Position numbers and translations under genes: made by a program. The notes beneath the pieces were generated by a model. It ran no database searches. It was not told the origin of the DNA and saw only the letters and a list, made by a program, of their open reading frames with translations. Below, piece by piece: positions 5,707 to 57,490 of a DNA stretch of 64,000 nt (position 1 is the first letter of the stretch; every line of letters begins with the position of its first letter). Origin of the DNA: Paracoccaceae bacterium (GTDB lineage: Bacteria; Pseudomonadota; Alphaproteobacteria; Rhodobacterales; Rhodobacteraceae); contig JAIXZY010000035.1 in assembly GCA_027489355.1 (NCBI GenBank), positions 62,001-126,000 on the forward strand. Reading direction: 5' to 3'.

Positions 5707-5732
5707 AACCGGAGAGGCGGAACGATTGTTCC
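5707..5732 (-). promoter_or_regulatory. EcfG-type promoter for the gene at 4803-5654
   Basis: Minus strand: GGAAC (5732-5728), 17-nt spacer, GGTT (5710-5707). The start codon is about 50 nt downstream. It matches the general-stress sigma EcfG pattern GGAAC-N16/17-NGTT. Confidence 0.65.
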
Positions 5733-5762
5733 CAGGTGCCATTTCCCGTTCATCGCCTTCAA

Positions 5763-5798
5763 GAAAATCACCGGCCGGAAAAGGTGATCCGGCCGGTG
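5763..5798 (-). terminator. Rho-independent terminator after the GYGQG-repeat gene
   Basis: Minus strand: CACCGGCCGGA pairs with TCCGGCCGGTG (11-bp stem, 8-nt loop), then ATTTTCTT. It lies directly after the stop codon of the gene at 5806-6609. Confidence 0.8.
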
Positions 5799-5805
5799 TC
5801 GGCAC

Positions 5806-6609
5806 TCAGTTCTTCTTCGACGAGGAGCCGCTGCTCTCGCCAGAGGAGGAGCTGCCGCTCATGCCCGAGCTGCCCTGGCTGCCCGAACCCGAGCTGCGGC
5901 TCTTGCGCCAGTCCTCGAACTCCTTGTCGAATTTCTTCTGCCGCTCTTCGTTGAAGGCGCGATACTCTTCGTCGTGCGACTGCATCTGGCGCTCGCGCCA
6001 GCTGCTGTAGTGCGGGTCGTGGCCCATTCCGCCCTGCCCACCCTGCATGCCCTGGCCGCCCATGCCTTCGATACCGGCACCACGGCTGCCATACATGCCT
6101 TGCGAACCGGTCATGGAGCCCTGGCCATAGCCGCCCTGGCCATAGCCGCCTTGGCCATAGCCGCCTTGGCCATAGCCGCCTTGCCCATAGCCGCCCTGGC
6201 CAAACCCGCTCTGGCCATAGCCGCCCTGGCCGTAGCCACGCTGGCCGTAACCCTGGCCGCGGTCATCGCCGGTGTAGCCCTGACCGGAGTACACGCCTTC
6301 GCTGCTGTAGCCGCCCTGGCCATAGCCGCCCTGACCGTACCGGCCATAGCCTTGGCCGCCGCGCCCTTGCGAGCCGTATCCGCCCCGGCCGCTGCTTTCC
6401 GACCAGTCGCGCGAGCTGCCGTAATCGTCGTCCTCATCCCAGCGGGACCCCGAAGAGCCGCGCGACGACGCCCGGCGTCCATAGCCGCGCTCCATATCGT
6501 CGTCATACCCGCCCCGGCTGGCCGAGCTGCCGTAGGACTGCCCGCCCGAGCGGCTGCGACCGCCTTGACCGCCGCGCTCATATTCGTCGTCTTCGTATCT
6601 CTGTGCCAT
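5806..6609 (-). CDS. GYGQG-repeat low-complexity stress protein
   Basis: A 267-residue protein rich in Gly, Tyr, Gln and Ser. After an acidic/Arg-rich N-terminus, the middle (about 95-165) carries many GYGQG units, resembling prion-like or phase-separating sequences. The C-terminal part is better ordered: [20 protein letters not shown] followed by an amphipathic charged segment ending in FEDWRKSR, which resembles a C-terminal module seen in rhizobial proteins of this kind, then a Ser/Gly tail. The start at 6609 is chosen because GGAGAG lies just before it; the longer frame to 6657 has no site. It has its own EcfG-type promoter and terminator. No enzymatic motif is visible. A role in desiccation or osmotic protection, or in condensate formation, is inference. 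Confidence 0.7.
6118..6240. repeat. Tandem 15-bp repeat encoding the GYGQG block
   Basis: About eight degenerate copies of CCATAGCCGCCTTGG lie head to tail. They are coding (minus-strand Gly-Tyr-Gly-Gln-Gly) and in frame, so length variation between strains would be tolerated. Confidence 0.8.
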
Positions 6610-6676
6610 GGTTCTCTCCAGTTGCTCGCCATGGGATCTGCCCGTCGCCGGGGCCATCCTCTACGGCCAGTCTCTC

Positions 6677-6701
6677 AACCGATGGCCAACACGATTGTTC
6701 C
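6677..6701 (-). promoter_or_regulatory. EcfG-type promoter for the GYGQG-repeat gene
   Basis: Minus strand: GGAAC (6701-6697), 16-nt spacer, GGTT (6680-6677), about 68 nt before the start codon. Confidence 0.65.
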
Positions 6702-7618: not shown

Positions 7619-7644
7619 AACAGAGAGAAGCGCGGGTTTGTTCC
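7619..7644 (-). promoter_or_regulatory. EcfG-type promoter for the Thr/Ala-rich gene
   Basis: Minus strand: GGAAC (7644-7640), 17-nt spacer, TGTT (7622-7619), 84 nt before the start codon. The -10 element is a weaker match than in most sites here. Confidence 0.5.
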
Positions 7645-7653: not shown

Positions 7654-8229
7654 TCAGTTCATGAAATGGCCCGGACCGGAGTCCATCAGCTTTTCCATCA
7701 GATGCAGCAGCCACGGTCCGATTGCCGCGCCGGTCGGCATCGGCTCGGGATCGTCGATGGCCGTTCGCAGGGTGATTTCCACCAGCCGGTCCGCTGCGCC
7801 GGGGTCTTCCAGAAATCCGCGCGCCCGCGCCCGCAGGACCGGGATCAGCTCGACGATGCTGTGACTGTCCACCTCGCGCGAGCGGGCGTCGAGAAGCTGC
7901 ACTGCGATCAGAGGAGGCTGCGGCTTGGTGATGAAGTCGATCCGCGCGAAACGGTCGGGAAGCCGCTCGCGGTCATAGCCGCTGAAGAAGACGTAAGGCA
8001 CATCCAGCATCGCCAGCCGGTCGGCAAGGTCGAAGGCCTTGCTGCCGCGAATGTCGATGTCCAGAACCGCGAGGTCGCTGTGGGCCAGTTGCAGTTCGGC
8101 ATCCGAGAGGCTGGCACAAGGGCCGACCACGATTGCATTGGCGGCCTCAAGCTCGTCCGCAATCTCGCGGGCCACCATGTAGTTGTCCTCGACCACCAGA
8201 ACCCGTTTACCGTGGAAGTTGCAGTTCAT
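7654..8229 (-). CDS. Receiver-domain response regulator with C-terminal extension
   Basis: A 191-residue protein whose first 115 residues are a CheY-like receiver. VVEDN gives the acidic pair, AVLDIDIRG the phospho-acceptor Asp, FFSGYD the switch Ser and ITKP the conserved Lys. The remaining 75 residues are not a DNA-binding domain that I recognise. The ATG at 8229 is preceded by GGGAGG; the longer frame to 8319 is not needed. Receivers of this type are common partners of HWE kinases, and one such kinase lies at 617-2302. Output is probably by protein-protein contact. It is divergent from the NepR-like gene at 8604. Confidence 0.8.
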   Translation of the reverse strand: MNCNFHGKRVLVVEDNYMVAREIADELEAANAIVVGPCASLSDAELQLAHSDLAVLDIDIRGSKAFDLADRLAMLDVPYVFFSGYDRERLPDRFARIDFITKPQPPLIAVQLLDARSREVDSHSIVELIPVLRARARGFLEDPGAADRLVEITLRTAIDDPEPMPTGAAIGPWLLHLMEKLMDSGPGHFMN

Positions 8230-8603: not shown

Positions 8604-8783
8604 ATGCCGCAGGATTCGGGACCAGAGCCCAAAGGCGACCCGGCACTCGCTGCGGCCGCGGCCCGCGTACTGGATGAGGTTAAGGCCGAGCCGGTGCCGG
8701 AGCCGATCCTTGAACTTGCGCAGAAGCTGGACCGCACGCTTCAGGCCCAGCGAAAGAAGGCGATCACGCCCGCGCAGGACTGA
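8604..8783 (+). CDS. NepR-like small protein (candidate anti-sigma factor)
   Basis: A 59-residue protein with ATG 8604 after GGAGAAGG. Its core, RVLDEVKAEPVPEPILELAQ followed by KLD, resembles the NepR family pattern (two short helices around E-P-[IV]-P-x-x-[FI]-x-x-L-x-x-x-L-D). NepR binds and blocks EcfG sigma factors and is removed by phosphorylated PhyR. No PhyR (sigma-like domain plus receiver) is visible in this window, and the neighbouring receiver protein lacks the sigma-like N-terminus, so the match rests on the short core only. The 370-nt gap before it (8230-8603), shared with the divergent receiver gene, shows no GGAAC-type promoter for either gene. It may be an unrelated short helical protein. 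Confidence 0.5.
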   Translation: MPQDSGPEPKGDPALAAAAARVLDEVKAEPVPEPILELAQKLDRTLQAQRKKAITPAQD

Positions 8784-9039: not shown

Positions 9040-9065
9040 AACCCTGACAATCGCCCTGCGGTTCC
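9040..9065 (-). promoter_or_regulatory. EcfG-type promoter for the Pro-rich gene
   Basis: Minus strand: GGAAC (9065-9061), 17-nt spacer, GGTT (9043-9040), 50 nt before the start codon at 8990. Confidence 0.6.
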
Positions 9066-9467: not shown

Positions 9468-9492
9468 AACCGCTCAGGCCCGGCGATGTTCC
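9468..9492 (-). promoter_or_regulatory. EcfG-type promoter for the PRC-barrel gene
   Basis: Minus strand: GGAAC (9492-9488), 16-nt spacer, GGTT (9471-9468), 54 nt before the start codon. Its -35 is only 2 nt from the -35 of the divergent promoter. Confidence 0.7.
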
Positions 9493-9494: not shown

Positions 9495-9520
9495 GGAACA
9501 ATCGGGTCCGGCCGGGGGTT
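9495..9520 (+). promoter_or_regulatory. EcfG-type promoter for the small membrane protein gene at 9542
   Basis: Plus strand: GGAAC (9495-9499), 17-nt spacer, GGTT (9517-9520). The ribosome site AAGGAGG follows at once, so the leader is very short (about 15 nt). Confidence 0.7.
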
Positions 9521-10144: not shown

Positions 10145-10170
10145 AACCCGAAAGGACGCCGGATTGTTCC
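10145..10170 (-). promoter_or_regulatory. EcfG-type promoter for the 10103-9754 gene pair
   Basis: Minus strand: GGAAC (10170-10166), 17-nt spacer, GGTT (10148-10145), 42 nt before the start codon at 10103. Confidence 0.65.
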
Positions 10171-10209
10171 GCCCCCAAACCGCAGACCTGGGATCATCGC
10201 ACCCTGGTT

Positions 10210-10256
10210 ACCCGTGGTTCTGCCCTGCAAAGCACCCGTGGTTCTGCCTGCAAAGC
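10210..10256. repeat. Tandem 23/24-bp direct repeat in an intergenic region
   Basis: ACCCGTGGTTCTGCCCTGCA (10210-) with AAGC is followed directly by a second copy lacking one C (10234-10256). It lies in the gap 10171-10397 between the small stress operon and the Tm-1-like gene, which otherwise shows nothing recognisable. Confidence 0.8.
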
Positions 10257-10397
10257 TGCGGTCTTGCGATCCCGTCCCTGTTCGGCCCGAGCAAGCCTGC
10301 CGTCCGGGGGGTACGTGCTGTGGCGAGCGGCCTGCATCGTCGGCGGCCAGGTAGCGGCCGCTCTTGCATTCTGCTGCCGAGGCTCGGAAGTCGGTTG

Positions 10398-11675
10398 TTA
10401 CAGCACTCCGTCCGCCAGCCACTGATCAAGGACCATCAGGGTTCCCTCAACAAAGCTCGGATCGTTGATGTGGCAGTTCGCGATGGTCGTGGGGACCTCG
10501 CCCGAAAGCTCATGCCGGAGGGTTTCGAAAAAGGCGGCCAGATCGGCGGGGGCGTGTGCGACTTCGCCCTGGAGGTCCCAGGCTTCGATCCCGTGCAGCG
10601 GAAGGACGACATGCACGGGGCCTGTCGCTGCGTTCAGGCGCAGAGCCATCTCCTTGGCAAGCAACCGACGTTCGTCGGCACTCAACGTCAGCGAAGAAAC
10701 TAGCTGGTTGTGCACATGGACCGGCCGTTCCCGCCACTTTTCCGGGAGAGGTTGCCAGGTCGGCCAGTCGACCAGATCTGCCGCGCCGGGGGCCACGATC
10801 TGGGGCACCCCATGTCGCCCGGCATTCCGCAGCCGGTCCGGCCCGCTTGAGACCATCGATCCGAACAGGTCGTTGGCAAGCTCTTGCATGCACAGGTCGA
10901 AGACTGCAGCGAAGCGTCCCTTCGCGGCCAGCGACTCGAAGGCACGGCCCCCCATGCCGGTGGAGTGGAATACGGCGACGCTGAAACCGCGCTGTTCCAG
11001 AGCAGGCTTGAGCAGCCGGATGTAGCTGAGGCAGGTATTGCCCAGCGAGGTGACGCCGATGAGCGGCAGATCGGAGTCCAGCGGGATCGCCGACCGAGCA
11101 GCGCCAAGCACGGCCCCGGCGGCCTGCGCCAGCGTCGACTTGCAGATCGCGTTCAGCCCGTAGAGACCGCCTGCCCAAAGGATCATCTGGACATCGGGAG
11201 CCAGACGTTCCGGCGGAATGATCGGCGAGAAGGCGACCGTGGACACGATGTACTTCGGCACACCAAGCGGCAGTGCCAGGGCAACGTCCAGCGCAAGGTC
11301 GGTACCCATCGTACCGCCCAGGGCGATCATCCCGTGGATCCGACCCGAGGTCACAAGATCGGCCGCAAGCCGAGACGCGCCCCGCGCCATCACGGACATT
11401 GCCTGGGATTCCTCGCCCAGGGCCGCCAGATCCGCAATGGATGCCCCGCCGGCCTCTGCGACCGCATGTTTGGAGATGTCCACCTCGTGGTCCGTGGTGC
11501 CCAGGATGCTGACGTCCATCCGCAGGACGCCACCGCCCTGTGAGCGAATGGTGTCCTCAAGGAAGGCCAGCTCGGCGGTCTTGGTGTCGTAGGTGCCGAC
11601 AATCAGGATCGTCCGGTCCTGTGCCGCCGGGGACCGCTGCAGATCAGTCTCGGGCCGCGTCACAGCTGAATCCAC
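10398..11675 (-). CDS. Tm-1-like ATP-binding protein (UPF0261)
   Basis: A 425-residue protein. ILIVGTYDTKTAELAFLED near residue 23 and the Gly-rich ALGGTMGTDLALDVALALP are typical of the Tm-1-like ATP-binding family (UPF0261), named from the tomato mosaic virus resistance protein Tm-1. Bacterial members sit in catabolic clusters, sometimes with TIM-barrel partners; their reaction is not settled. The start overlaps the end of the aldehyde dehydrogenase gene by 16 nt, so the two are cotranscribed and probably serve one pathway. The C-terminal part (VHVVLPLHGIEAWDLQGE) is complete. No truncation is seen. Confidence 0.85.
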   Translation of the reverse strand: MDSAVTRPETDLQRSPAAQDRTILIVGTYDTKTAELAFLEDTIRSQGGGVLRMDVSILGTTDHEVDISKHAVAEAGGASIADLAALGEESQAMSVMARGASRLAADLVTSGRIHGMIALGGTMGTDLALDVALALPLGVPKYIVSTVAFSPIIPPERLAPDVQMILWAGGLYGLNAICKSTLAQAAGAVLGAARSAIPLDSDLPLIGVTSLGNTCLSYIRLLKPALEQRGFSVAVFHSTGMGGRAFESLAAKGRFAAVFDLCMQELANDLFGSMVSSGPDRLRNAGRHGVPQIVAPGAADLVDWPTWQPLPEKWRERPVHVHNQLVSSLTLSADERRLLAKEMALRLNAATGPVHVVLPLHGIEAWDLQGEVAHAPADLAAFFETLRHELSGEVPTTIANCHINDPSFVEGTLMVLDQWLADGVL

Positions 11676-13147
11676 GCCGATTTGAGGTTCGTATACTTGT
11701 CCAGCGCATGCAGCGACTTGTCATGGCCGTTGCCCGATTGGCCATGCCCGCCAAGCGGAACCGTGAGGTCAGACCCGCCATAGGTGTTCACATGGACAAG
11801 CCCAGCGCGTACGGACCGCACCATCCGGTGCGCGCGTGACAGGTCGCGGGTCCAGACTCCGGCTGCAAGGCCGTACTCTGTCGCATTGGCCAAAGCGACG
11901 GCCTCGGCCTCGGAGTCGAAGGACATGACCGCCAGCACGGGGCCGAAGACCTCTTCCCGGGCAAGCGCCATGTTCGGGGTGATGCCCGTCACGATCGCCG
12001 GGCGCTGGTAGAAGCCGCCGGTCTCTTGCAGCAGACGCTCGCCTCCGAACAGAAGTTCTCCCCCCTCGTTCACGGCGCGGGCGATGTGGCCAAGGTTCTG
12101 GGACAGTTGCTGCTCGCTGATCACGGCGCCAATGTCGTTCTGCGCGTCCAGGGGATCGCCGACCCGCAGTTTGGCCGTGATCTCGACAAGCCGGTCCAGG
12201 AACGAATCCCGGATCGAGCTTTCGACCAGCAGGCGCGATCCGGCCACGCAGACCTGACCGGAGTTGCGGAAGATTGCGTTGGCGGCGGCTTTGGCGGCGA
12301 TCTCCAGATCGGGCGCATCGGCAAAGACGATGTTGGGCGACTTGCCGCCCAGTTCGAGATAGACGCGCTTGAGGTTCGAGCGCGCCGCGTATTCCAGAAG
12401 TCGCCGCCCCACCACGTTCGAGCCGGTGAAAGCCAGTACCTCGACATCCATGTGGGTCGCCAGCGCCTCACCCACCACCGCGCCCGCACCCGTGACGACG
12501 TTCAGCGCGCCCTCTGGCAGTCCGGCCTCCAGCGCAAGTTCGGCCAGTCGCAGCAGGCTGAGAGAGGCGGCCTCGGCCGGCTTCAGCACCACCGAATTGC
12601 CCTGCGCCAGCGCCGGGGCCAGCTTCCAGGCGCCAATCATCAGCGGCATGTTCCAGGGAACAATCGCGCCCACCACGCCGACGGGTTCGCGGTGAATCAG
12701 ACCAAGTGCGCTGGAAGCGGTCGGAGCAATCTCGCCATAGACCTTGTCGATGGCCTCGGCATAGTAGCGAAAGGTTGCTGCAGCCCCCAGGGGCTCGGCC
12801 TTCAGGGCCATACCGACTTCGGTTCCATTGTCACGGATTCCAAGAACCGCAAGCTCCTGGGCGTTCTGCTCAAGGAGGTCGGCAAGCCGCAGCAGCACCT
12901 TCTTGCGCTCTGCCGGGGCGCGCCGGGACCAGGTTCCGGCCTCGAAACAGCGTCGGGCGGCAGCGACAGCCGCGTCAATGTCCCGTGCGCTGCCCCGCGC
13001 GATTGTGGTGAGCGGGCGGCCGTCGATCGGAGAAATGACCTCGATGGTTTCTCCGGTGCTGGACGGACACCAATCCTTGCCGATCAGCATCTTGCGCGGC
13101 GCGATGTCTTGCTGGCGCAAACGGCTGAGCAGGTCTGGATCGATCAT
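11660..13147 (-). CDS. NAD(P)-dependent aldehyde dehydrogenase
   Basis: A 495-residue cytosolic ALDH of normal length. VVLKPAEAASL and FTGSNVVGRRLLEYA belong to the Rossmann cofactor domain, YLELGGKSPNIVFADA supplies the general-base Glu, and SGQVCVAGSRLLVES the nucleophilic Cys. It oxidises an aldehyde to the acid; the substrate is not fixed by sequence. The overlap with the downstream Tm-1-like gene and the divergent IclR regulator suggest a small inducible catabolic unit, and the nearby aminotransferase (14796) could supply an aldehyde from an amine. It resembles amino- or hydroxy-aldehyde dehydrogenases of amine catabolism, but this is inference. Confidence 0.93.
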   Translation of the reverse strand: MIDPDLLSRLRQQDIAPRKMLIGKDWCPSSTGETIEVISPIDGRPLTTIARGSARDIDAAVAAARRCFEAGTWSRRAPAERKKVLLRLADLLEQNAQELAVLGIRDNGTEVGMALKAEPLGAAATFRYYAEAIDKVYGEIAPTASSALGLIHREPVGVVGAIVPWNMPLMIGAWKLAPALAQGNSVVLKPAEAASLSLLRLAELALEAGLPEGALNVVTGAGAVVGEALATHMDVEVLAFTGSNVVGRRLLEYAARSNLKRVYLELGGKSPNIVFADAPDLEIAAKAAANAIFRNSGQVCVAGSRLLVESSIRDSFLDRLVEITAKLRVGDPLDAQNDIGAVISEQQLSQNLGHIARAVNEGGELLFGGERLLQETGGFYQRPAIVTGITPNMALAREEVFGPVLAVMSFDSEAEAVALANATEYGLAAGVWTRDLSRAHRMVRSVRAGLVHVNTYGGSDLTVPLGGHGQSGNGHDKSLHALDKYTNLKSAWIQL

Positions 13148-13254
13148 TTGATTGTCCGTTCAAGGCAATGGACCCGCAAGGGGCGATTTCCCGCAACCCT
13201 AGAAGTCGTCAGGGCCGCCACATAGCCCCGCAAAGGGTGACATCAGCCGCAAGT

Positions 13255-13285
13255 TATTTCATTATTATCAACGCTAATGGAAATA
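13255..13285. promoter_or_regulatory. Candidate IclR-type operator between ALDH and IclR genes
   Basis: TATTTCATTA (13255-13264) and TAATGGAAATA (13275-13285) are an imperfect inverted repeat in an AT-rich spot. The half-site TGGAAAT/ATTTCA resembles the classical IclR-family box (TGGAAAT-N-ATTTCCA). It overlaps the first possible start codon of the regulator gene (13277). Confidence 0.4.
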
Positions 13286-14131
13286 TTGACACGAATGGAC
13301 GACGCGCCTCTTCTCTTCCCCAGGGCGCCAGGAAAGGGCTTCACGGTGCGGACAGTAGCCAAGGCTTTGACGATTCTGGATCTCTTCACCGAAGAGACCC
13401 CGTCCCTTCGCCTGGCCGATATTGCCGAACGAACCGGACTGGACCGTTCGACGGCCTATCGGATGCTGCAGACCCTGTGTGAGTTCGGCTATCTGGACCA
13501 ATCCGAGGAAACCAAGAAGTACCGGCTTGGCGCGACGGTCGTCCGTCTGGCCCGCACGCGGGACGCCGTGGTGCAGACGGGCGATCTGTACCACGATCTG
13601 CTAAGAAGACTGACCCAGGAGACGCAGGAAACGAGCCACGCCTCGCATCTGGCCGGCTACCAGATCGCAACCATCGCTGCCTGTCCGGGCCTGCACAACA
13701 ACCGCGTTTTCGTAGAAGCCGGCGGTCGGCTGGAGCCGCACGCCACTGCCTCGGGCATCGCCTGTCTGGCCTATGCCGGTCCGGCCTTTCTTGAACGAGC
13801 ACTCGCCCGACCGCTGACGTCTTTCGCCGAGAACACGCCCATGACGCCGGAAGATCTCATGGCGGCGCTGACGGCGACGCGGAAGCGGGGTTACAGCACC
13901 GCGCCCGGCACCTTTGACCCCGAGGTCTATGGCGTCGCCGCCCCGATCTTCGGCGCAAAGGGTCTTGCGGTGGGCGCGGTCGCGGTGGCCACGCCCTTCT
14001 CGCGCATGACCCCCGAGTTGGAGCGCCACATAGCGCGCTGCACAATTGCCGCCGGACTAGAGGCCAGCCGCGTCGAGGCTGGCGTCGTCCCGGAAAGCTA
14101 TCTCGAACTGACAAGGACGATACTGGAATGA
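13277..14131 (+). CDS. IclR family transcriptional regulator
   Basis: Up to 284 residues. The N-terminal winged helix-turn-helix (TVAKALTILDLFTEETPSLR, then LADIAERTGLDRSTAYRMLQ) and the C-terminal IclR effector domain are both present and of usual length. The start is uncertain: ATG 13277 and ATG 13295 lack ribosome sites, while GTG 13346 is preceded by AGGAAAGG and would begin directly at the HTH. IclR proteins bind small organic acids or amines and repress or activate adjacent catabolic genes. Likely targets are the divergent ALDH/Tm-1-like unit and its own operon with the HAD and aminotransferase genes. Confidence 0.9.
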   Translation: MEILTRMDDAPLLFPRAPGKGFTVRTVAKALTILDLFTEETPSLRLADIAERTGLDRSTAYRMLQTLCEFGYLDQSEETKKYRLGATVVRLARTRDAVVQTGDLYHDLLRRLTQETQETSHASHLAGYQIATIAACPGLHNNRVFVEAGGRLEPHATASGIACLAYAGPAFLERALARPLTSFAENTPMTPEDLMAALTATRKRGYSTAPGTFDPEVYGVAAPIFGAKGLAVGAVAVATPFSRMTPELERHIARCTIAAGLEASRVEAGVVPESYLELTRTILE

Positions 14132-14784
14132 CGGACTACGGTCAGGCTCTCGTGCTGGACTTCGGCGGGGTTGTCACCCGCACGATGTTCGAAACGCACG
14201 AGTTGAGCGAAAAGGCCCTTGGCCTTGCCCCCGGAACGCTGACCTGGCGCGGCCCCTTTGCGCCCGATCAGGACAGCCTTTGGCGCGACATGCAGGCGGG
14301 CAAGATCACCGAACGCGACTACTGGATGGTCCGCGTGCGCGAGACCGGCGCCCTGCTGGGCGAGACGTGGAGCAGCTTTCCGCAGCTGATCTCACGCGCC
14401 CGCGGCGACGATCCGCTGGCCGTGATCCGGCCGGAGTTCCACGACGCCATGCACAAAGCCAAGGCGGCCGGCCGGCGGCTGGCGATCCTGTCGAACGAGC
14501 TTGACCTGTTCTACGGCGACGGCTTCCGCGCCAAGCTCCCCTTCCTGGCCGAGTTCGAGCTGATCGTCGATGCCTCGCACACCGGCATCCTGAAGCCCGA
14601 TCCCCGCGCCTATGAGGCCATCACAAAGGGCCTGGGGCTGCCGGCCTCGGCCTGCGTCTTCGTCGACGACCAGATGAAGAACATCCGCGGTGGCGAGGCG
14701 GCAGGCATGGCCTGCGTGCCTTTCGACGTCACCAAACCTGCCGCAAGCTATGGCAAGGCGCTGGCCTTGCTGGGAATTCACTGA
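14128..14784 (+). CDS. HAD-superfamily (IA) hydrolase
   Basis: A 218-residue protein. Motif I is LVLDFGGVVTR (nucleophile Asp near residue 11; the usual second Asp is Gly, as in several HAD-IA phosphatases). Motif II is ILSNE, the Lys lies in GILKPDPRAYE, and motif IV is CVFVDDQMKN. It is likely a phosphatase or dehalogenase-type hydrolase. The ATG overlaps the IclR stop (ATGA), indicating translational coupling. The aminotransferase gene follows 11 nt later. The substrate is unknown; the operon suggests a phosphorylated or halogenated intermediate in amine catabolism. Confidence 0.85.
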   Translation: MTDYGQALVLDFGGVVTRTMFETHELSEKALGLAPGTLTWRGPFAPDQDSLWRDMQAGKITERDYWMVRVRETGALLGETWSSFPQLISRARGDDPLAVIRPEFHDAMHKAKAAGRRLAILSNELDLFYGDGFRAKLPFLAEFELIVDASHTGILKPDPRAYEAITKGLGLPASACVFVDDQMKNIRGGEAAGMACVPFDVTKPAASYGKALALLGIH

Positions 14785-14795
14785 AGGACCCCGAC

Positions 14796-16157
14796 ATGTT
14801 CGACACCAATTTCACGCGCGAAAACAACGCCCGCCACTTCTGGGCCCCGATGTCCCACCCGCGCGATCTGCGCGCCGCACCGCCCAAGGTGATCGTCCGC
14901 GGTGAGGGGGTTCACATCGTGGACATCGACGGCCACCGGACACTGGACGGCGTCGGCGGACTGTGGTGCACCAACCTGGGCCACAGCTCCGAGCCGGTGA
15001 AGGAGGCCATCCGCCGCCAACTGGACACGCTCCCCTATTACAACACCTTCCGCAGCACCACGAACGCGCCGACGATCGAGCTGTCCTACCTTCTGCAGGA
15101 ATATTTCGCACCGGAAGGACTGACGCGCTGCTTCCTTACGGCGGGCGGATCCGACTCGGTCGAGACTGCGCTGCGCCTCGCCCGCCAGTTCCACCGCGTG
15201 AACGGCGAGCCGGAGCGCACCAAGTTCTTCTCGCTGAAGCGCGGCTATCACGGTACGCATTTCGGCGGCGCTTCGGTGAACGGAAACCCGAACTTCCGCC
15301 GGAACTACGAGCCGATGCTGGCGGGCTGCCACCACCTGCCCGCCCCGTTCGCCTACCGCAACGAATTTGGTACCGAGGATGAAGAGACGATCGCCAAGGG
15401 CATCGCCCGGGCCTTCGAGGAGGAAATCGCGTTCCAGGGCGCAAACACCATCGCCGCCCTGATCATGGAGCCTGTCCTGGGCGCAGGCGGCGTCATCGTC
15501 CCGCCCGAGACCCTGTTCCCGCTGATGCGCGCCATCTGTGACAAGCACGGCATCCTCCTGATCGCGGACGAGGTCATTACCGCGTTCGGCCGGACCGGGG
15601 CTGACTGCGGCTCGCGGCTCTGGGGCATCAAGCCCGACATGATGACGATGGCAAAAGCCCTCACCAACGGCTACTTCCCCCTGGGCGCGGTGATGATCTC
15701 GGACCGCATCGCGCAGGCCTTCGAAGCCAACGCCGACACGCGCGGCGTCATCAGCCACGGCTACACCTACTCTGGACATCCGGTCGGCGCGGCCGCAGCC
15801 GTCGCCGCCGTGACCGAGATCCGTCGCCAGAACCTTGCCGCACACGCCCGGACGCATGGCGAGACGCTGCTGGCCGGGTTCAAGGCGCTGCAGGACCGCT
15901 ACGAGCTGATCGGAAACGTGCGTGGCAAGGGTCTGATGCTTGCGATGGAACTTGTGACCGACCGGGCTGCCAAGACGCCCGCCGGGAAGCAGGTCGTCGA
16001 AAGGGTCTACGAGGCGGCCTATGCCGAAGGCCTGATCATGCGCACATCGGGCAACAACCTGATCCTGTCCCCGGCGCTGATCATCGGACCCGAGGACGTC
16101 GAAACCATCCTGCACTGTCTGGACGTGGGCCTGAAAGCGGGAACGGAGGCGCTTTAG
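14796..16157 (+). CDS. Class III PLP-dependent aminotransferase
   Basis: A 453-residue fold-type I enzyme of usual length. GGSDSVETALRLARQFH binds the cofactor phosphate, LIADEVITAFGRTG holds the PLP-ring Asp, and MAKALTNGYFPLGAVMIS the Schiff-base Lys. The segment TRENNARHFWAPMSHPRDL at the N-terminus is typical of omega-amino-acid or taurine:pyruvate type members. These transfer an amino group from a primary amine or beta-amino acid to pyruvate or 2-oxoglutarate. It lies in an operon with IclR and HAD genes; a product aldehyde could be oxidised by the nearby ALDH (11660). Confidence 0.9.
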   Translation: MFDTNFTRENNARHFWAPMSHPRDLRAAPPKVIVRGEGVHIVDIDGHRTLDGVGGLWCTNLGHSSEPVKEAIRRQLDTLPYYNTFRSTTNAPTIELSYLLQEYFAPEGLTRCFLTAGGSDSVETALRLARQFHRVNGEPERTKFFSLKRGYHGTHFGGASVNGNPNFRRNYEPMLAGCHHLPAPFAYRNEFGTEDEETIAKGIARAFEEEIAFQGANTIAALIMEPVLGAGGVIVPPETLFPLMRAICDKHGILLIADEVITAFGRTGADCGSRLWGIKPDMMTMAKALTNGYFPLGAVMISDRIAQAFEANADTRGVISHGYTYSGHPVGAAAAVAAVTEIRRQNLAAHARTHGETLLAGFKALQDRYELIGNVRGKGLMLAMELVTDRAAKTPAGKQVVERVYEAAYAEGLIMRTSGNNLILSPALIIGPEDVETILHCLDVGLKAGTEAL

Positions 16158-16228
16158 GCGCCGACGTTCCCGAAGCGACGTTGTCACGCGGCACGACCAG
16201 AACCATACTCACCGAAACGGGGATCGCC

Positions 16229-17026
16229 ATGCACGCCGAGACTTGCCTCAATGGAGTGACGAAACTGATCGACGTGATCGGTTCGAACGATTTTGCAGCG
16301 GACTTCTTCAGTGCGATCAACTCGATGGTGCCGATCGACCACTGCACGGTGTTCATGTCGGATGCGGGCAGCGTCCGCACTGTCATCGCACAGGCGCGAT
16401 CGGCAACAGCGAATCGACAGGTGCAGCATCTGGCGGATGCCTATTCGAATTCGGCCTATCGCGACGATCCGGTCTGGAGCAGCATCGACGCCCAACCGGC
16501 GTGCTGGGTGATCCTCCCGTCGGCCCTTCCCGATGCGAACTATCGCCGCGAGTTCTATGACAAGCCGAACATCCTGGAGGAAGTCGCGGTATCGGGGGTA
16601 TCCGGCCCACGGCGGGTGTATATCAGCTACTACCGCGAACGGGGCCATGCCCGGTTCAGCCGCGACGAGATCGACCGGCTGACCGCCTGTGCGCATCCCA
16701 CGATCGCGGTCCTTGGCAAGCATGTCGAACTGGCCAGCCGCGCCCCCGCGCCCCCGACCCCATCGGCCCCAGTCAGCCGGGACGAGCTTTACCGCAGGGT
16801 CCAGGTGGCCATTCACGATGAAAACCCGGCCCTGACCAAGCGCGAGGCCGAAATCTGCGCGGGGATCGTGCTTGGCTACACCGTGCTGGGTCTGAGCCTG
16901 AACCTGGGCATCAGCATGAACACCGTGGCCACCCATCGCAAGCGGGCCTATGCCAAGCTGAAGGTCTCAAGCCAGAACGAACTTTTTGCCCATTACTTCG
17001 GGATGGTCGAAGCCCTCAAGGCCTGA
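16229..17026 (+). CDS. LuxR-type transcriptional regulator
   Basis: A 265-residue protein from ATG 16229 (weak GGGGAT site; an upstream in-frame start at 16181 is less likely). The C-terminal LuxR helix-turn-helix is clear: LTKREAEICAGIVLGYTVLG followed by LGISMNTVATHRKRAYAKL. The N-terminal 190 residues include W/Y-rich segments (YRDDPVWSSID, RRVYISYYRERGHARFSR) that suggest a GAF-like sensor rather than a clear autoinducer pocket. No luxI is present in the window. It ends at a strong bidirectional terminator shared with the flavin reductase gene. Target genes are unknown. Confidence 0.85.
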   Translation: MHAETCLNGVTKLIDVIGSNDFAADFFSAINSMVPIDHCTVFMSDAGSVRTVIAQARSATANRQVQHLADAYSNSAYRDDPVWSSIDAQPACWVILPSALPDANYRREFYDKPNILEEVAVSGVSGPRRVYISYYRERGHARFSRDEIDRLTACAHPTIAVLGKHVELASRAPAPPTPSAPVSRDELYRRVQVAIHDENPALTKREAEICAGIVLGYTVLGLSLNLGISMNTVATHRKRAYAKLKVSSQNELFAHYFGMVEALKA

Positions 17027-17042
17027 CCCGCCCTCTGACAGG

Positions 17043-17078
17043 AAGAAAGGGCCGCCAGGATGCGCGGCCCTTTCTTTT
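17043..17078. terminator. Bidirectional Rho-independent terminator
   Basis: AGAAAGGGCCGC and GCGGCCCTTTCTT form a long stem with T tracts on both strands. It separates the convergent LuxR-type gene and the flavin reductase gene. Confidence 0.9.
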
Positions 17079-17090
17079 GATTTCCTGCAC

Positions 17091-17594
17091 TCAGGCGATC
17101 CGCTGCGCCGTCGGGGCAACGCCGTGATAATGCCGGTCGAAGTAGACCAGCCCCGCCCGATCCTCGCCCAGTTCAATCTGCACCACTTCGGCCAGAAAGA
17201 TCGTATGCGACCCGCATTCGACCATCTCCGAAATCCGGCAGTCGAAGGCGACAAGCGCAGAGGTCAGTATCGGCGCGCCGGTGGTGCCCTGATGATGCGC
17301 CACATGGTCGAACCGAAGCTCGGCCGGCACACCGGCCATGCCGGCGAAGATCCGGGCGATCTCTTCGTCCTCGTGGGCCAGAACGTTCACGCAGATGCGC
17401 CCGTTGGCCTTGATGGTCTTGTTGGACCAGCTGTTGCGGTTGATGCAGACCAGCAGGGTTGCCGGACTGTCGGTCACGGAACTGACCGCCGTGACCGTGG
17501 TGCCACATTTCCCGGCAACACCGTCCGAAGTGACGACGCTGACCGCCGCGCCCAGTTTCGACATTGCCGTGCGGAACAGGGATTGATCAAGCAT
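17091..17594 (-). CDS. Flavin reductase component of a two-component monooxygenase
   Basis: A 167-residue flavin reductase-like domain (PF01613). FRTAMSKLGAAVSVVTSDG, then GTTVTAVSSVTDSPATLLVC, INRNSWS and ICVNVLAHEDEEIARIFAG are all typical, as is the C-terminal YFDRHYHGV. It reduces FMN or FAD with NAD(P)H and hands the reduced flavin to a monooxygenase. ATG 17594 follows GGAGACC; the gene lies 14 nt after the monooxygenase-like gene at 17609 in the same transcript. It may also serve the HpaB-like enzyme at 20189. Confidence 0.92.
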   Translation of the reverse strand: MLDQSLFRTAMSKLGAAVSVVTSDGVAGKCGTTVTAVSSVTDSPATLLVCINRNSWSNKTIKANGRICVNVLAHEDEEIARIFAGMAGVPAELRFDHVAHHQGTTGAPILTSALVAFDCRISEMVECGSHTIFLAEVVQIELGEDRAGLVYFDRHYHGVAPTAQRIA

Positions 17595-17608
17595 TGCGGT
17601 CTCCGGGA

Positions 17609-18784: not shown

Positions 18785-18965
18785 CGGATTCGATCTCGCT
18801 TCCTGGTCTGGGAGCAGAACCTCACTGGCCTGCTCGGCAACGGTCTTCGGCTCTGCAGCCCGCATGGCGGCAAGCATGCGGGGCTGCTGTTCATCTTGGG
18901 TTCGGGGCATTGAAACCAGATGCCCGCGGGACTGGCACTACCCTCTGCGGGGGAGATTGAAAGAA

Positions 18966-19008
18966 ATGTGTACATCTGTCCATCAAAAATTTGGACAAAC
19001 GTACACAT
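18966..19008. promoter_or_regulatory. Large inverted repeat with TGTAC cores in a divergent promoter
   Basis: ATGTGTACATCTGTCC (18966-18981) and GGACAAACGTACACAT (18993-19008) match as an inverted repeat at 14 of 16 positions around an 11-bp AT-rich centre. It lies between the monooxygenase/reductase unit and the DapB-like gene. A related palindrome is upstream of 20189. It is a probable operator for one regulator controlling the cluster. Confidence 0.7.
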
Positions 19009-19078
19009 CCCTCGTATGGTCCCTCGAAGGATGTGGCCGCCCGGCCTTTTTGCGGTCCACAGCAGGGGAGAGATGGGG

Positions 19079-20098: not shown

Positions 20099-20151
20099 CC
20101 CGCAAAGGGTAGGGTGCCGCCGATGAAACCGAATACTAATCCGACAGCTTT

Positions 20152-20165
20152 TGTACACATGTACA
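20152..20165. promoter_or_regulatory. TGTACA palindrome upstream of the HpaB-like gene
   Basis: TGTACA-CA-TGTACA is a near-perfect palindrome 24 nt before the HpaB-like start codon. It shares its core with the inverted repeat at 18966-19008, implying common regulation. The short gap 20099-20188 holds nothing else recognisable. Confidence 0.65.
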
Positions 20166-20188
20166 CCTAAACGGAAGGGGCCAAGCCA

Positions 20189-21733: not shown

Positions 21734-21760
21734 CCGCAGCGGCAAGCGCAGACAACAAAC

Positions 21761-21800
21761 GCCGGGCCCCGCATCGCCTCGGGGCCCGGCTTGCTTGATT
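21761..21800 (+). terminator. Rho-independent terminator after the HpaB-like gene
   Basis: GCCGGGCCCCG (21761-21771) pairs with CGGGGCCCGGC (21780-21790), an 11-bp stem, followed by TTGCTTGATTTT. Confidence 0.85.
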
Positions 21801-21830
21801 TTCGAAGGCACGGCCGGAGATGCTGCCCCA

Positions 21831-36289: not shown

Positions 36290-36290
36290 C

Positions 36291-42134: not shown

Positions 42135-42361
42135 AGCATCTTCCTCCCTCAGTTGCTCCTGACGGTCACGTCGCATCATGCAAACCGGGGCGTTCAAGGG
42201 TCGATTCGCAGGGAGACACGCCGCAAGATGCCCGATCCTTACATCCATACTAAAATTTCTCTACATCTTTTTTATAATTGATGCACAAGATTGGGCAGGA
42301 TTCTGGCTCCGGCAGAGAAACCGTGCGCCTGCGTCGGTAACCGCGTCGGCCTCCCAGCCGG

Positions 42362-43008: not shown

Positions 43009-43033
43009 GGAACAAATCTGCGCGGGGCGCGTT
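43009..43033 (+). promoter_or_regulatory. EcfG-type promoter for the gene at 43063
   Basis: GGAAC (43009-43013), 16-nt spacer, CGTT (43030-43033), 30 nt before the start codon. A full match to the classical GGAAC-N16-CGTT consensus. Confidence 0.7.
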
Positions 43034-43910: not shown

Positions 43911-43935
43911 AACCGGGCGGAGCCGCTATTGTTCC
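43911..43935 (-). promoter_or_regulatory. EcfG-type promoter for the gene at 43462-43872
   Basis: Minus strand: GGAAC (43935-43931), 16-nt spacer, GGTT (43914-43911), 39 nt before the start. Confidence 0.7.
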
Positions 43936-45748: not shown

Positions 45749-45773
45749 AACCGGACTGCGGGATGAAAGTTCC
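45749..45773 (-). promoter_or_regulatory. EcfG-type promoter for the DUF892 gene
   Basis: Minus strand: GGAAC (45773-45769), 16-nt spacer, GGTT (45752-45749), 44 nt before the start codon. It sits between the sigma gene and DUF892. Confidence 0.7.
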
Positions 45774-45781: not shown

Positions 45782-46255
45782 TCAGACCTCCTCCCCCAGG
45801 GCCGTCTGCAGAAGCTTGCGCCCGCGGTTGATCCGGCTTTTGATCGTGCCGATGTCGCAGCCCAGGATTTCTGCGGCGGACTGGTAGCTTTCCCCGGTCA
45901 CCAGGACGAGCATCACCGCCTCGCGGTAGGCCTGCGGCAGGCCAAGAAGGGCTGCCTCGATCTCGCGGCCGCGGACATGCCAGTATTGCCGCTCGGGCGT
46001 GGTGGGCACGTTCGAGATGCAATCCTCGGCCCCCGGGCGTTCCCGCGCCAGCTTTACACGATCGTTGTAGAACCGGTTGCGCATGATGGTGAACAGCCAG
46101 GCGCGCATGTTGGTGCCTGGGGTGTAGGACTGGGCGCTGGCGATGGCCCGGACCAAAGTGTCCTGCACCAGATCGTCGGCATCGCCGTAGCGGCCGGTCA
46201 ATGACCGCGCAAAAAGGCGTAGTGCCGGGATATGACTCAGCACATCATCGGACAT
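45782..46255 (-). CDS. EcfG-like ECF RNA polymerase sigma factor
   Basis: A 157-residue ECF sigma factor, close in size to the group. Region 2 is LRLFARSLTGRYGDADDLVQ, then DTLVRAIASAQSYTPGTNMR and AWLFTIMRNRFYND; region 4 is AALLGLPQAYREAVMLVLVT, SYQSAAEILGCDIGTIKSRI and NRGRKLL. The G-T-N-M-R-A-W-L-F-T-I-x-R-N segment is characteristic of the alphaproteobacterial EcfG/RpoE-like general stress sigma group. CAGGAG precedes ATG 46255. Its likely targets, GGAAC-N16/17-NGTT promoters, are plentiful in this window, including that of the adjacent DUF892 gene and of Ku. Its own upstream region holds only an imperfect GGAAC-N16-CATT. No anti-sigma gene is adjacent; the NepR-like candidate is at 8604. 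Confidence 0.85.
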   Translation of the reverse strand: MSDDVLSHIPALRLFARSLTGRYGDADDLVQDTLVRAIASAQSYTPGTNMRAWLFTIMRNRFYNDRVKLARERPGAEDCISNVPTTPERQYWHVRGREIEAALLGLPQAYREAVMLVLVTGESYQSAAEILGCDIGTIKSRINRGRKLLQTALGEEV

Positions 46256-46372
46256 GAAGGTAGGCTCCTGCTGACTGCCGGGGTTTAATGCCCGCCACCG
46301 AACCCGGTTCCGGCCCGTCGCAGCCGCGTGATCCGTTCCGGCGGGATCCAGCCGAGACGGTCGCGGACCGTG

Positions 46373-46398
46373 GGAACCGACCGAAGGTAACAGCGGTT
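46373..46398 (+). promoter_or_regulatory. EcfG-type promoter for the Ku-LigD operon
   Basis: GGAAC (46373-46377), 17-nt spacer, GGTT (46395-46398), 44 nt before the Ku start codon. Confidence 0.65.
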
Positions 46399-50567: not shown

Positions 50568-50593
50568 AACGATGAACACGACCCGGCGGTTCC
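50568..50593 (-). promoter_or_regulatory. EcfG-type promoter for Ku copy 2
   Basis: Minus strand: GGAAC (50593-50589), 17-nt spacer, CGTT (50571-50568), 26 nt before the start codon. It is back to back with the promoter at 50607. Confidence 0.7.
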
Positions 50594-50606: not shown

Positions 50607-50631
50607 GGAACATTCCGGCAAGCCAACGGTT
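50607..50631 (+). promoter_or_regulatory. EcfG-type promoter for the Gln-rich gene at 50686
   Basis: GGAAC (50607-50611), 16-nt spacer, GGTT (50628-50631), 55 nt before the start codon. Confidence 0.7.
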
Positions 50632-51281: not shown

Positions 51282-51306
51282 AACCCCCTGCCGTCCGGAA
51301 CGTTCC
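51282..51306 (-). promoter_or_regulatory. EcfG-type promoter for the gene at 51040-51249
   Basis: Minus strand: GGAAC (51306-51302), 16-nt spacer, GGTT (51285-51282), 33 nt before the start. It abuts the stop codon of the FAH-family gene. Confidence 0.65.
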
Positions 51307-54148: not shown

Positions 54149-54173
54149 GGAACATTTTGCGCGCCGCCCTGTT
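54149..54173 (+). promoter_or_regulatory. EcfG-type promoter for the DUF2934-LLM-TreZ operon
   Basis: GGAAC (54149-54153), 16-nt spacer, TGTT (54170-54173), 42 nt before the DUF2934 start codon. Confidence 0.55.
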
Positions 54174-55462: not shown

Positions 55463-55469
55463 TTTCCGA

Positions 55470-57248
55470 ATGACCCAGATATCAAGACCCGATCCTGCGG
55501 CCATGCCATCCGCCCCGCATCTCTGGGGTGCCCGCCCCTGTGGCAATGGCTGGTGGGACCTTGCGCTTTGGGCACCGTCGGTCGATGCAATCACGCTGCA
55601 CCTTGGCCATCTGGACAACCGGATTGCCATGCTGCGCGGCGAGAACGGAGTGCACCGCGCCCGCGCCGAGGCCAGCGAAGGCACACGCTATGCGTTCTCG
55701 GCCACCGGCGAACCTTTCGCCGATCCCACCTCGCTGCAGCAGGAGCTGGGCGTGGAAAGCTGGTCCCTTCTGCGCGACCCCGAGAACTTCCGGCCGTCGC
55801 CCCGGCCCTGGGTCGGCCGGCCTTTCGACGAGGCTGTATTTGCCGAACTGCACATCGGCAGCTTCACCCCCGAAGGCACCTTCACGGGCGCCGCCCGATC
55901 GCGCGAGCTGCGCAGGCTGGCCGAAAGCGGAATAACCGCGATCGAACTGATGCCGGTCGGCCAGTTTCCCGGCACTCGCGGCTGGGGCTATGACAGCGTA
56001 CTGCCCTGGGCCCCGCAGCACAGCTACGGCAAGCCCGAGGATCTTGCCGCGCTGGTCGACGAAGCGCACGGGCTGGGACTGATGGTGTTTCTGGACGTGG
56101 TCTTCAACCACTTCGGGCCGCAGGGTTGCGCCCTGACCGAGATTTGCCCGGAATTCTTCCGGGACGAGCACAACGACTGGGGTCGCAAGATCGACTACAG
56201 CCGTCCCGAAGTGCGCGCCTATTTCATCCAGTGCGCGCTGCACTGGCTGGAGGCCTATCACCTGGACGGACTGCGCCTGGACGCGGTTCACGAGATGGAG
56301 GATCCGACCGAACCTCATGTCGTCGTGGAACTGGCACAGACGATACGCCAACGGGACTGGGGCCGTACGGTGCATCTCGTTGCCGAGGACAGCACGAACA
56401 AGGTCGGCTGGTACGATCCGGCATCGGGCCTCTTCGACGCGTCCTGGGACGACGACTACCACCATGCCCTGCATGTCCTGCTGACCGGGGAAAGCTTCGG
56501 CTACTACAAGGATTTCGTGAAGGACCCTGCCGCCGACCTGCGTCTGGCATTGCGCGACGGCCAGGCGCTTCAGGGCCAGCCGCGCCCGGCGGGGCTGGAG
56601 GAAAAGGGCGAACCGTCGGGCCACCTGCCGCCGCGTTGCTTCGTGAACTTCAACCTGAACCACGACCACGCCGGAAACCGCCCGCGCGGGGAACGTCTGA
56701 TTTCCCTCATCGGCGCCGACCGCGCCCTGGTCGCGCATGCCTTCCTGCTGGCTGCGCCCTATACGCCGCTGATCTTCATGGGAGAGGAGATCGGCTCTCG
56801 CCAGCCGTTCCCGTGGTTCGCGGATTATGGCGGCAAGACCGCCCGAAAGATGCGCGAGGGCCGGGTGAAGCAGTTTCAGGACCTCCCCGGCAAGGGCGCG
56901 GACATGATCGATCCGTTCGACCGTTCGACCCTGCGCCGGTCCTGGCCCTATGCCCGGCCCGAACCCCGCGACTCGGCCCTCTGGCTTGCCGTGACCCGCA
57001 CGGTCCTGGACCTTCGCCGGACGAAGCTGTTGCCCATCTTCCGCTCGGGGCGTCGCCGCGAATTCCAGATCGACCCGCTGGGAGATCGCGGGATCACCGC
57101 GCTTTGGCATTTCACGGACGGGACGCTTCAGGCCGACGTCGCCTTCGACCTGGGCGACCCGGAACCGGAGACACCGCCCGGCTATCAGCCGCTTTACCAG
57201 CTGGGCCAGGCGGGAACCCCCCGGTTCCGGCTGGGCCGTCTGCCCTGA
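55470..57248 (+). CDS. treZ: Malto-oligosyltrehalose trehalohydrolase
   Basis: A 592-residue GH13 enzyme that releases trehalose from maltooligosyl trehalose. An N-terminal carbohydrate-binding-like domain (about 1-100) precedes the barrel: AELHIGSFTPEGTFTGAARS, LDVVFNHFGPQG, DGLRLDAVHEM (nucleophile Asp), HLVAEDS (acid/base Glu) and NHDHAGNRPRGERL (third Asp). All three catalytic residues are present. ATG 55470 or 55503 could be the start. No TreY synthase is in the window, so the partner must lie elsewhere. Expression from the GGAAC promoter at 54149 links trehalose to stress. Confidence 0.93.
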   Translation: MTQISRPDPAAMPSAPHLWGARPCGNGWWDLALWAPSVDAITLHLGHLDNRIAMLRGENGVHRARAEASEGTRYAFSATGEPFADPTSLQQELGVESWSLLRDPENFRPSPRPWVGRPFDEAVFAELHIGSFTPEGTFTGAARSRELRRLAESGITAIELMPVGQFPGTRGWGYDSVLPWAPQHSYGKPEDLAALVDEAHGLGLMVFLDVVFNHFGPQGCALTEICPEFFRDEHNDWGRKIDYSRPEVRAYFIQCALHWLEAYHLDGLRLDAVHEMEDPTEPHVVVELAQTIRQRDWGRTVHLVAEDSTNKVGWYDPASGLFDASWDDDYHHALHVLLTGESFGYYKDFVKDPAADLRLALRDGQALQGQPRPAGLEEKGEPSGHLPPRCFVNFNLNHDHAGNRPRGERLISLIGADRALVAHAFLLAAPYTPLIFMGEEIGSRQPFPWFADYGGKTARKMREGRVKQFQDLPGKGADMIDPFDRSTLRRSWPYARPEPRDSALWLAVTRTVLDLRRTKLLPIFRSGRRREFQIDPLGDRGITALWHFTDGTLQADVAFDLGDPEPETPPGYQPLYQLGQAGTPRFRLGRLP

Positions 57249-57251
57249 CCG

Positions 57252-57416
57252 TCAGGGCGCCGTACCGATCACCGTTCCATCTTCGCGCACCATCGTGACC
57301 CGTCGCCGCCGTTCCCCATCCAGCCGCTCGGCCTGGCGCGACGACCAGAAGAGGCCCACCAACGAGATCGCCAGCAGGATCAGGAACACGACCGCTCCCA
57401 AAGTACGTTCGTCCAT
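57252..57416 (-). CDS. Small single-span membrane protein
   Basis: A 54-residue protein: MDERTLGAVVFLILLAISLV with one transmembrane helix (about 6-24), then a basic segment (SRQAERLDGERRRRVTMVRE). No family is recognised. CAAGGAGA precedes ATG 57416; a perfect GGAAC-N16-CGTT promoter lies 50 nt upstream. It is convergent with TreZ. Function unknown. Confidence 0.7.
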   Translation of the reverse strand: MDERTLGAVVFLILLAISLVGLFWSSRQAERLDGERRRRVTMVREDGTVIGTAP

Positions 57417-57465
57417 GACTGTTCTCCTTGCCTTGGTCCGGCCCGTGCCGAACCCATGTCCCTGC

Positions 57466-57490
57466 AACGTGCGACCAGTCAGGTTGTTCC
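57466..57490 (-). promoter_or_regulatory. EcfG-type promoter for the gene at 57252-57416
   Basis: Minus strand: GGAAC (57490-57486), 16-nt spacer, CGTT (57469-57466), 50 nt before the start. Full consensus. Confidence 0.7.

Follow-up and report, generated by a model that had tools for sequence, protein, structure and literature searches.

A clustered set of EcfG-type promoters and a proposed partner switch for an accessory sigma factor in a Paracoccaceae genome

The 64,000-nucleotide stretch of a Paracoccaceae genome analysed here (the window) carries a gene for an accessory EcfG-like extracytoplasmic function (ECF) sigma factor of 157 amino acids (aa; 45782..46255, minus strand), together with a divergent NepR-like protein of 59 aa, N2, which is a putative anti-sigma factor (8604..8783, plus strand), and a putative anti-anti-sigma factor, D, in which a receiver is followed by a domain like sigma region 2, with no region 4 (7654..8226, minus strand). 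A histidine kinase of the HWE family with a dCache sensor (602..2302, plus strand) is a candidate kinase for D. Around these genes lie two islands of promoter motifs of the type known from the alphaproteobacterial general stress response (GSR), separated by a block of catabolic genes. We consider it probable, with some reservation, that the islands are the clustered core regulon of the accessory sigma factor, which would have its own partner switch beside the standard PhyR-NepR-EcfG system of the same cell.

Promoter islands and the block between them

The pattern GGAAC-N16/17-NGTT has exactly 17 matches on the two strands of the window, whereas 100 dinucleotide shuffles averaged 2.43 (standard deviation 1.42, maximum 6). 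The matches thus exceed chance, as claimed in a preliminary description of this DNA that had expected about four per 64 kilobases (kb). It had listed 17 sites in the right orientation 20-85 nucleotides (nt) before start codons; 16 of its coordinates are exact matches. A plausible open reading frame (ORF) start, picked by us among the listed starts, lies 19-83 nt downstream of 16 of the 17 exact matches. Its remaining coordinate, 45180, has CGTC as its -10, a mismatch already reported there, and no GGAAC is found at this place in the relatives G020, G023 or G005; this non-conserved site was dropped. The exact match absent from its list, at 6926 (minus strand), sits in the 3' part of a gene and was rejected. 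The division into two islands holds as well, with no match to the pattern in the scan of the catabolic block (10401-42350).

A scan of the whole genome with a control, proposed in the same description, gave a more mixed result: the window is enriched, and genome-wide there are 239 matches versus 189 of the reversed pattern, so that most matches outside the window are probably due to chance. (The reversed pattern varies widely between genomes and was hence not used for comparisons between them.) The form GGAACA...GTT has 64 matches in the genome, 11 in the window and 53 outside, and 25 of these 53 places (26 sites for the coding test) served as the set from elsewhere in two automatic tests. A Shine-Dalgarno sequence and a start within 12-110 nt were found for 15 of 17 window sites and 15 of 25 elsewhere, which does not discriminate. 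As for matches falling equally often inside genes, the outcome that would have counted against the promoters, called ORFs cover 4 of the 17 window sites (7619, 9468, 9495 and 43911), 2 of the 3 window matches to the reversed pattern and 16 of the 26 sites elsewhere, by a rule under which 85% of window positions are coding. In our view the four ORF calls in the window are mistaken, since relatives carry the motif at the same gene.

The enrichment is confirmed, and its decisive support is conservation. Corresponding regions were compared in six relatives from the genus (G020, G023, G005, G001, G007 and G025), and the motif lies within 200 nt upstream of 59 of 68 orthologues of site-bearing genes versus 7 of 48 for neighbouring genes that have no site in the window. 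GGAAC and GTT are constant in the relatives while the spacers vary. Five 20-kb loci of the sigma factor in Tabrizicola (L048, L049, L052-L054) hold 12-20 matches each versus 0-3 of the reversed pattern.

Sixteen of the matches are putative promoters of window genes. In the first island, those at 5707..5732, 6677..6701, 7619..7644 and 9040..9065 (all minus strand) would serve an arginine-, serine- and aspartate-rich protein (4803-5654), a GQGGYG-repeat protein (5806-6657), an alanine- and threonine-rich protein with a signal-like N-terminus (6876-7535) and a PDPxP protein (8802-8990), and the motif is found in one of four orthologue alignments for the first, a low-complexity protein, and in 2/2, 3/3 and 3/3 orthologues for the others. 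The site at 9468..9492 (minus strand) precedes a PRC-barrel protein gene (9118-9414; 5/6 orthologues), the one at 9495..9520 (plus strand) a gene for a small membrane-like protein (9542-9757; 3/4), and the one at 10145..10170 (minus strand) two genes for small proteins (9939-10103 and 9754-9936; exact motif in 3/6).

In the second island, the site at 43009..43033 (plus strand) stands before a gene for a 90-aa protein (43063-43335; 5/6 orthologues), that at 43911..43935 (minus strand) before a gene for a proline-rich protein (43462-43872; 3/3) and that at 45749..45773 (minus strand) before a DUF892 gene (45208-45705; 6/6). Two sites, at 46373..46398 (plus strand) and 50568..50593 (minus strand), belong to a Ku gene followed by ligD (46442-47281 and 47283-49736) and to a second Ku gene (49733-50542), and both are conserved in 6/6 orthologues, always as GGAACC. 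The remaining sites precede genes for a glutamine- and asparagine-rich protein for which tblastn gave no orthologue (site 50607..50631, gene 50686-50871, plus strand), a small membrane-like protein (51282..51306, gene 51040-51249, minus strand; 6/6), an 80-aa protein (54149..54173, gene 54215-54457, plus strand; 5/5) and another small membrane-like protein (57466..57490, gene 57252-57416, minus strand; 2/2). Elsewhere in the genome, GGAACA...GGTT also stands before apparent second DUF892-type, PRC-barrel-like and SRPBCC-fold-like genes, named by eye (L009, L013 and L020).

The regulon had been described as split, and this is literally so. The counterparts of window positions 1-10113 and 42396-64000 are adjacent in G020 and G023, about 230 base pairs (bp) apart, and G005 has the same adjacency of both halves near the junction. 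The catabolic and transport block (10180..42390, approximate edges) is missing at this place in all three, and since the halves are joined without it in these close relatives, it is most simply an insertion of 32 kb into the stress island; a chimeric contig would be an alternative. Its genes (10398-42248) encode ABC transporters of peptide and solute type, a proline racemase-like protein, FAD oxidases, an HpaB-type hydroxylase, an aldehyde dehydrogenase, an aminotransferase and several regulators, and look like a set for the catabolism of amines or amino acids. The G+C content of the block is 0.649 versus 0.663 and 0.664 in its flanks. No tRNA was found in the window, no integrase among the 26 block ORFs scanned with Pfam (a subset of those in the block) and no clear repeat at the ends of the block. 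When a 6.2-kb piece of the block was used as a probe, one of 31 relatives showed a long counterpart among the matches listed (G007, on another contig, 73% identity), with nine candidates scored per genome, and the other matches listed were short.

At the position of the block, G020 has a tiny hydrophobic peptide gene behind a GGAAC...GTT site (C1, about 511570-511720, L112), both of which the window lacks; the junction site is present in L048 and L049 too. A D-galactarate/altronate dehydratase gene (52505-54109) lies mostly in a stretch (52524-54225) that is absent from G020 and G023 and would be a second, smaller insertion.

The accessory sigma factor and its promoter wording

The sigma factor matches the Pfam models PhyR_sigma2 (1.8e-15), Sigma70_r2 (2.5e-15) and Sigma70_r4_2 (1.9e-13), and has regions 2 and 4 and no extra domain, as in the EcfG (ECF15) group, to which it probably belongs. 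The preliminary description had read an EcfG-like sigma gene at 45782 and a promoter pattern of EcfG type; the pattern and the position were right, and it is the identity of the sigma factor that changes. In a tree of 76 rows it falls in a clade of 37 rows (support 99/96) from which canonical EcfGs are excluded and which includes Tabrizicola, Paracoccus, Pleomorphomonas, Devosia, Pseudogemmobacter and other members of the family; long outgroup rows also ended up on the branch of canonical EcfG (support 85/41). Orthologues of at least 78% identity occur in 9 of the 32 genus genomes, our own included. The same genome has a second EcfG-like gene on contig C7 (22743-23192) and a third on contig C4 (36543-37001), with 39% and 40% identity to the window sigma factor, respectively. 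At the C7 locus EcfG is accompanied by a 58-aa NepR (Pfam NepR, 58.0 bits) and a normal PhyR, and the three genes are likewise together in ten other canonical loci examined. Judged by clade and neighbourhood, the window sigma factor is an accessory paralogue and the C7 gene is the standard EcfG.

Two neighbouring ORFs, the DUF892 gene (45208-45750) and a 69-aa ORF (44893-45102), were tried as sigma factor or NepR candidates and dropped after Pfam and profile searches. In Paracoccus yeei (L066, about 10385) the accessory sigma gene seems to shift frame before region 4 and may be broken, while the neighbouring NepR-like gene and D have open reading frames. In G016 a weak NepR-like match (C18:14478-14543, E 0.008) lies about 170 bp from the likely counterpart of the third sigma gene, perhaps as another pair.

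The sigma gene has a putative promoter of its own, GGAAC-N16-CATT (46287..46311, minus strand), 31 nt before the ATG, which the preliminary description had missed and which is invisible to the exact pattern. The site is conserved: in nine distinct Tabrizicola sequences it reads CATT eight times and AATT once, in the 12 loci L055-L066 CATT four times, AATT three times and CGTT once with none in four, and in the 13 loci L175-L187 CGTT or GGTT 12 times with none in one. The part of a study of Sphingomonas melonis available to us lists EcfG-dependent genes with CATT at the place of the -10, as well as an EcfG-dependent Ku gene (PMC6599016).

The wording of the promoters differs between the islands and the canonical loci. 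Among filtered sites (sites inside called ORFs or without a start were dropped, which leaves 11 of the 17 in the window, and orthologues are not independent), GGAAC is followed by A in 43 of 70 island sites from 7 genomes versus 1 of 57 canonical-locus sites from 11 genomes; the -10 starts with G in 45/70 versus 12/57 and with C in 13/70 versus 39/57. The dominant form is GGAACA...GGTT at the islands and GGAAC(C/T)...CGTT at ordinary loci. Per megabase (Mb), GGAACAW...SGTT has a median of 6.05 matches (2.41-8.14) in genomes with the accessory sigma factor and 2.00 (0.83-3.91) in those without it (p 1e-4). Promoter wording suggests that the 16 promoters are read mostly by the window sigma factor.

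N2 and D, putative partners of the sigma factor

The gene of N2, transcribed divergently from D, encodes a motif like EPVPxxxxxLAxxL. It was missed by a first NepR search using canonical sequences and was detected by a profile based on six small genes that neighbour distant relatives of the sigma gene. N2 profiles in turn retrieve canonical-looking NepRs in the locus sets at E 3.9e-8 to 0.0021 and, in G024, G005, G025 and G004, ORFs that neighbour EcfG. In 10 of 10 pairs of N2 genes the nonsynonymous rate (dN) is lower than the synonymous rate (dS), with one dS beyond range and the distant pairs near saturation. N2 adjoins D or lies up to 6 kb from it in all eight genus genomes with D, a neighbourhood expected of a NepR. 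Because it falls below the Pfam NepR cut-off we call it NepR-like and not NepR; it draws attention to small NepR-like genes missed by the Pfam model.

In D, about 70 residues follow the receiver domain. Profile-profile comparison relates this C-terminus most closely to region 2 of the accessory sigma factors (probability 97.8, E 4.8e-12), then to EcfG (80.5, 1.5e-6) and PhyR (70.0, 5.2e-6), with 0.13 for a kinase control. The receiver-first layout and the match to region 2 therefore indicate that D has the parts of PhyR in reverse order and without region 4. PhyR is defined by N-terminal sigma-like regions 2 and 4 and a C-terminal receiver, and because the domain order of D departs from this we call it PhyR-like; literature searches in open-access PMC showed no receiver-first PhyR. 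Among 13 aligned D sequences Asp56, as required for phosphorylation, is present in all and Lys101 in 11, and dN is below dS in 15 of 15 pairs. For the protein of the window both Pfam Response_reg and PhyR_sigma2 stay below cut-off, while its orthologue in G020 passes Response_reg. Further D-like matches in the family sample are found in G302 (C365) and in G283, there with two internal stops.

Both genes follow the accessory sigma factor through the genus. Full-length D occurs in 8 of 9 sigma-positive versus 0 of 23 sigma-negative genomes, and N2 (E 1e-9 or better) in the same eight. Four sigma-negative genomes gave N2 matches at E 1.4e-7 to 0.008, two of which lie beside an EcfG (G024 and G004) and one near a sigma gene of the third type (G016), while that in G014 is unexplained. 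D adjoins N2 in five of the eight genomes (our own, G020, G023, G005 and G026) and lies about 6 kb from it in three (G001, G007 and G025). N2 profiles find matches in 16 of the 19 sigma loci L048-L066 (all except L051, L059 and L060; some of these loci provided profile seeds) and in 7 of the 14 short loci L174-L187. In a class-wide sample of 385 genomes full-length D was found in three additional genomes, which belong to two other families. At the eight D loci outside the genus that were examined (P. yeei, G049, G302, G082, G247, G581, G356 and G339), N2 lies within 1 kb of D in six and 6 kb away in G302, and is not in the stretch fetched for G082; a sigma factor of this kind is in the stretch at four of them (P. 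yeei, G049, G302 and G339).

A second switch and its relation to known systems

We propose the following scheme. In the absence of stress N2 would hold the accessory sigma factor; under stress a kinase of the HWE family, for which 602-2302 is the candidate, would phosphorylate the receiver of D, and phosphorylated D would present its copy of sigma region 2, take up N2 and free the sigma factor. The kinase has 69.8 bits to Pfam HWE_HK (3.5e-19; cut-off 22.8), a dCache_1 match (7.1e-17) and HREKN in its translation, in agreement with HRXXN as expected of this family, and G020 and G023 have an orthologue (66%). The freed sigma factor would use GGAAC-N16-CATT to transcribe its own gene, and mostly promoters like GGAACA-N16/17-GGTT for the genes of the islands, with the two Ku proteins and LigD, the DUF892 protein, the PRC-barrel protein and many small proteins as targets. 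Through the 32-kb insertion the distance of the sigma gene from N2 and D, about 6 kb in G020, would have grown to about 37 kb, with the remaining promoters left untouched. We infer the binding and phosphorylation steps because the known system works in this way, as far as the consulted parts of PMC8103513 and PMC4814048 describe it, and the reading of the islands by the window sigma factor in place of the standard EcfG is likewise put forward as part of this scheme. Of the preliminary description, then, the EcfG-type promoters and the split of the regulon stand, the identity of the sigma factor is revised, and the NepR-like and PhyR-like genes of the window had not been seen.

Several findings weigh against a separate switch of this kind. 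The relation of N2 to NepR is distant: the protein of the window has no match to Pfam NepR and that of G020 reaches 13.4 bits (cut-off 25.7), canonical NepR gives a modest profile-profile score (probability 24, E 1.6e-4), and the canonical NepR of the same genome was retrieved at E 0.0016 by the first N2 profile and not at 0.01 or better in two later searches. The Pfam PhyR_sigma2 matches of D are below cut-off. Canonical nepR and phyR have GGAAC promoters, whereas none is present before N2 or D in the window. One genus genome, G019, has the sigma factor and neither N2 nor D, in an assembly that is 70% complete. In the family sample of 295 genomes, a D reaching into the sigma-like part is found in 4 of the 15 genomes with a sigma factor of this clade (at least 139 bits, our own included), and G247 has D without such a sigma factor; with D missing from 11 of the 15, the switch cannot be the same everywhere, and another anti-anti-sigma factor or none must serve there. 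Dense clustering of the motif is seen in the genus only, with 0-7 matches in up to 20 kb at the loci L055-L070 of other genera, and in the statistics orthologous sites and related genomes count as independent observations. Finally, C follows GGAAC in 19 of the 70 island sites, and likewise in every Ku promoter of the seven genomes, which makes an overlap of the accessory and the standard regulon probable.

The alternative that fares best is a single regulon in which the standard EcfG of contig C7 reads the promoters and the window sigma factor is a downstream amplifier or a redundant copy, after the models of SigU for SigT in Caulobacter and EcfG1 for EcfG2 in Sphingopyxis granuli. We regard it as unlikely, yet it merits attention: the core motif is the same, the Ku promoters and several others in the islands have the canonical wording, paralogues that share targets are known from what could be consulted of PMC8103513 and PMC3892343, and most family genomes with this sigma factor do without D. 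Set against this are the shift to A after GGAAC (43/70 versus 1/57), the NepR-like and PhyR-like companions of the sigma factor in the genus, and the rate of GGAACAW...SGTT in ten genomes that we assigned, from the sigma search, to the class with a canonical-type EcfG and no accessory sigma factor, which at 1.32-3.91 per Mb resembles that of thirteen others without it (0.83-3.68).

Still less probable is a role of both proteins in the standard switch, with N2 as a decoy for PhyR (an anti-anti-anti-sigma factor), D as a phosphate sink or extra trap for NepR, and the accessory sigma factor governed by its level only. Methylobacterium extorquens has two NepR homologues that bind PhyR and, according to the part of the source available, were not found to bind any EcfG (PMC4814048), and single-domain receivers act in the network as described in the accessible part of PMC5964349. 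N2 and D, however, track the accessory sigma factor (8/9; D 0/23 where it is missing) and not the canonical locus, and the sigma-like part of D is most like the accessory sigma factor. That the motif cluster reflects chance or composition can practically be dismissed, since 17 matches against a shuffle maximum of 6, conservation at 59/68 versus 7/48 and retention of the motif across species outweigh the narrow genome-wide margin (239 versus 189) and the two weak automatic position tests.

A switch proper to the accessory sigma factor, the reading we prefer, would amount to a second, partly insulated stress switch with a clustered regulon, and would show how a duplicated sigma factor becomes insulated; D would be a PhyR-like protein of reduced length whose region 2 may by itself suffice to strip off an anti-sigma factor. 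More tentatively, and with somewhat less than even confidence, we suggest that it represents a type of partner switch of which we found no description, composed of an inverted PhyR-like decoy that lacks region 4 and resembles its own sigma factor more than EcfG, a short relative of NepR and an EcfG paralogue with shifted promoters. The cell would then have a second general stress response insulated at the level of both protein and promoter, with switch and regulon co-located in the genus, and the pair of decoy and inhibitor would recur in at least three alphaproteobacterial families. A review of 2021, in the part consulted, states that the specific functions of alphaproteobacterial EcfG paralogues are not generally agreed upon (PMC8103513); the locus offers a testable answer, namely a paralogue with its own inhibitor, decoy and promoter wording.

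The proposed system shares with the PhyR-NepR-EcfG (ECF15) switch an ECF sigma factor with GGAAC-N16/17-NGTT promoters, a NepR-like protein, a protein with receiver and sigma-like parts, an HWE-type kinase and stress targets. It differs in that D is receiver-first with a part like region 2 only, N2 is below the Pfam NepR cut-off, the sigma factor is in a separate clade, the promoters are shifted to GGAACA and GGTT, and switch and targets are clustered in the genus. For comparison, the PhyR of R. sphaeroides is given as 48-50% identical to standard PhyRs in the section seen of PMC5830050. Extra EcfG copies are common in known systems. Rhizobium etli EcfG2 is likewise a second EcfG-like sigma factor away from phyR and nepR, with partly separate targets and a preference for its own promoter (PMC3892343), whereas, within the parts of the sources at hand, no EcfG2 motif was found there (PMC3892343) and one NepR is known (PMC8103513), and for the present locus both partners and a distinct motif are proposed. 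Rubellimicrobium thermophilum also has two GSR loci per genome, GSR and GSR', with two PhyRs and a single NepR for both in the portion of the report available (PMC12148442), unlike the short receiver-first PhyR-like protein with its own NepR-like protein considered here; a NepR of the N2 type may have been overlooked at the GSR locus there. In Sinorhizobium meliloti NepR and PhyR are duplicated as well (RsiA1/RsiA2 and RsiB1/RsiB2), and the accessible text of PMC4814048 and PMC8103513 has these duplicates acting on one sigma factor, RpoE2, in contrast to the separate sigma factor that N2 and D would serve in the system proposed here.

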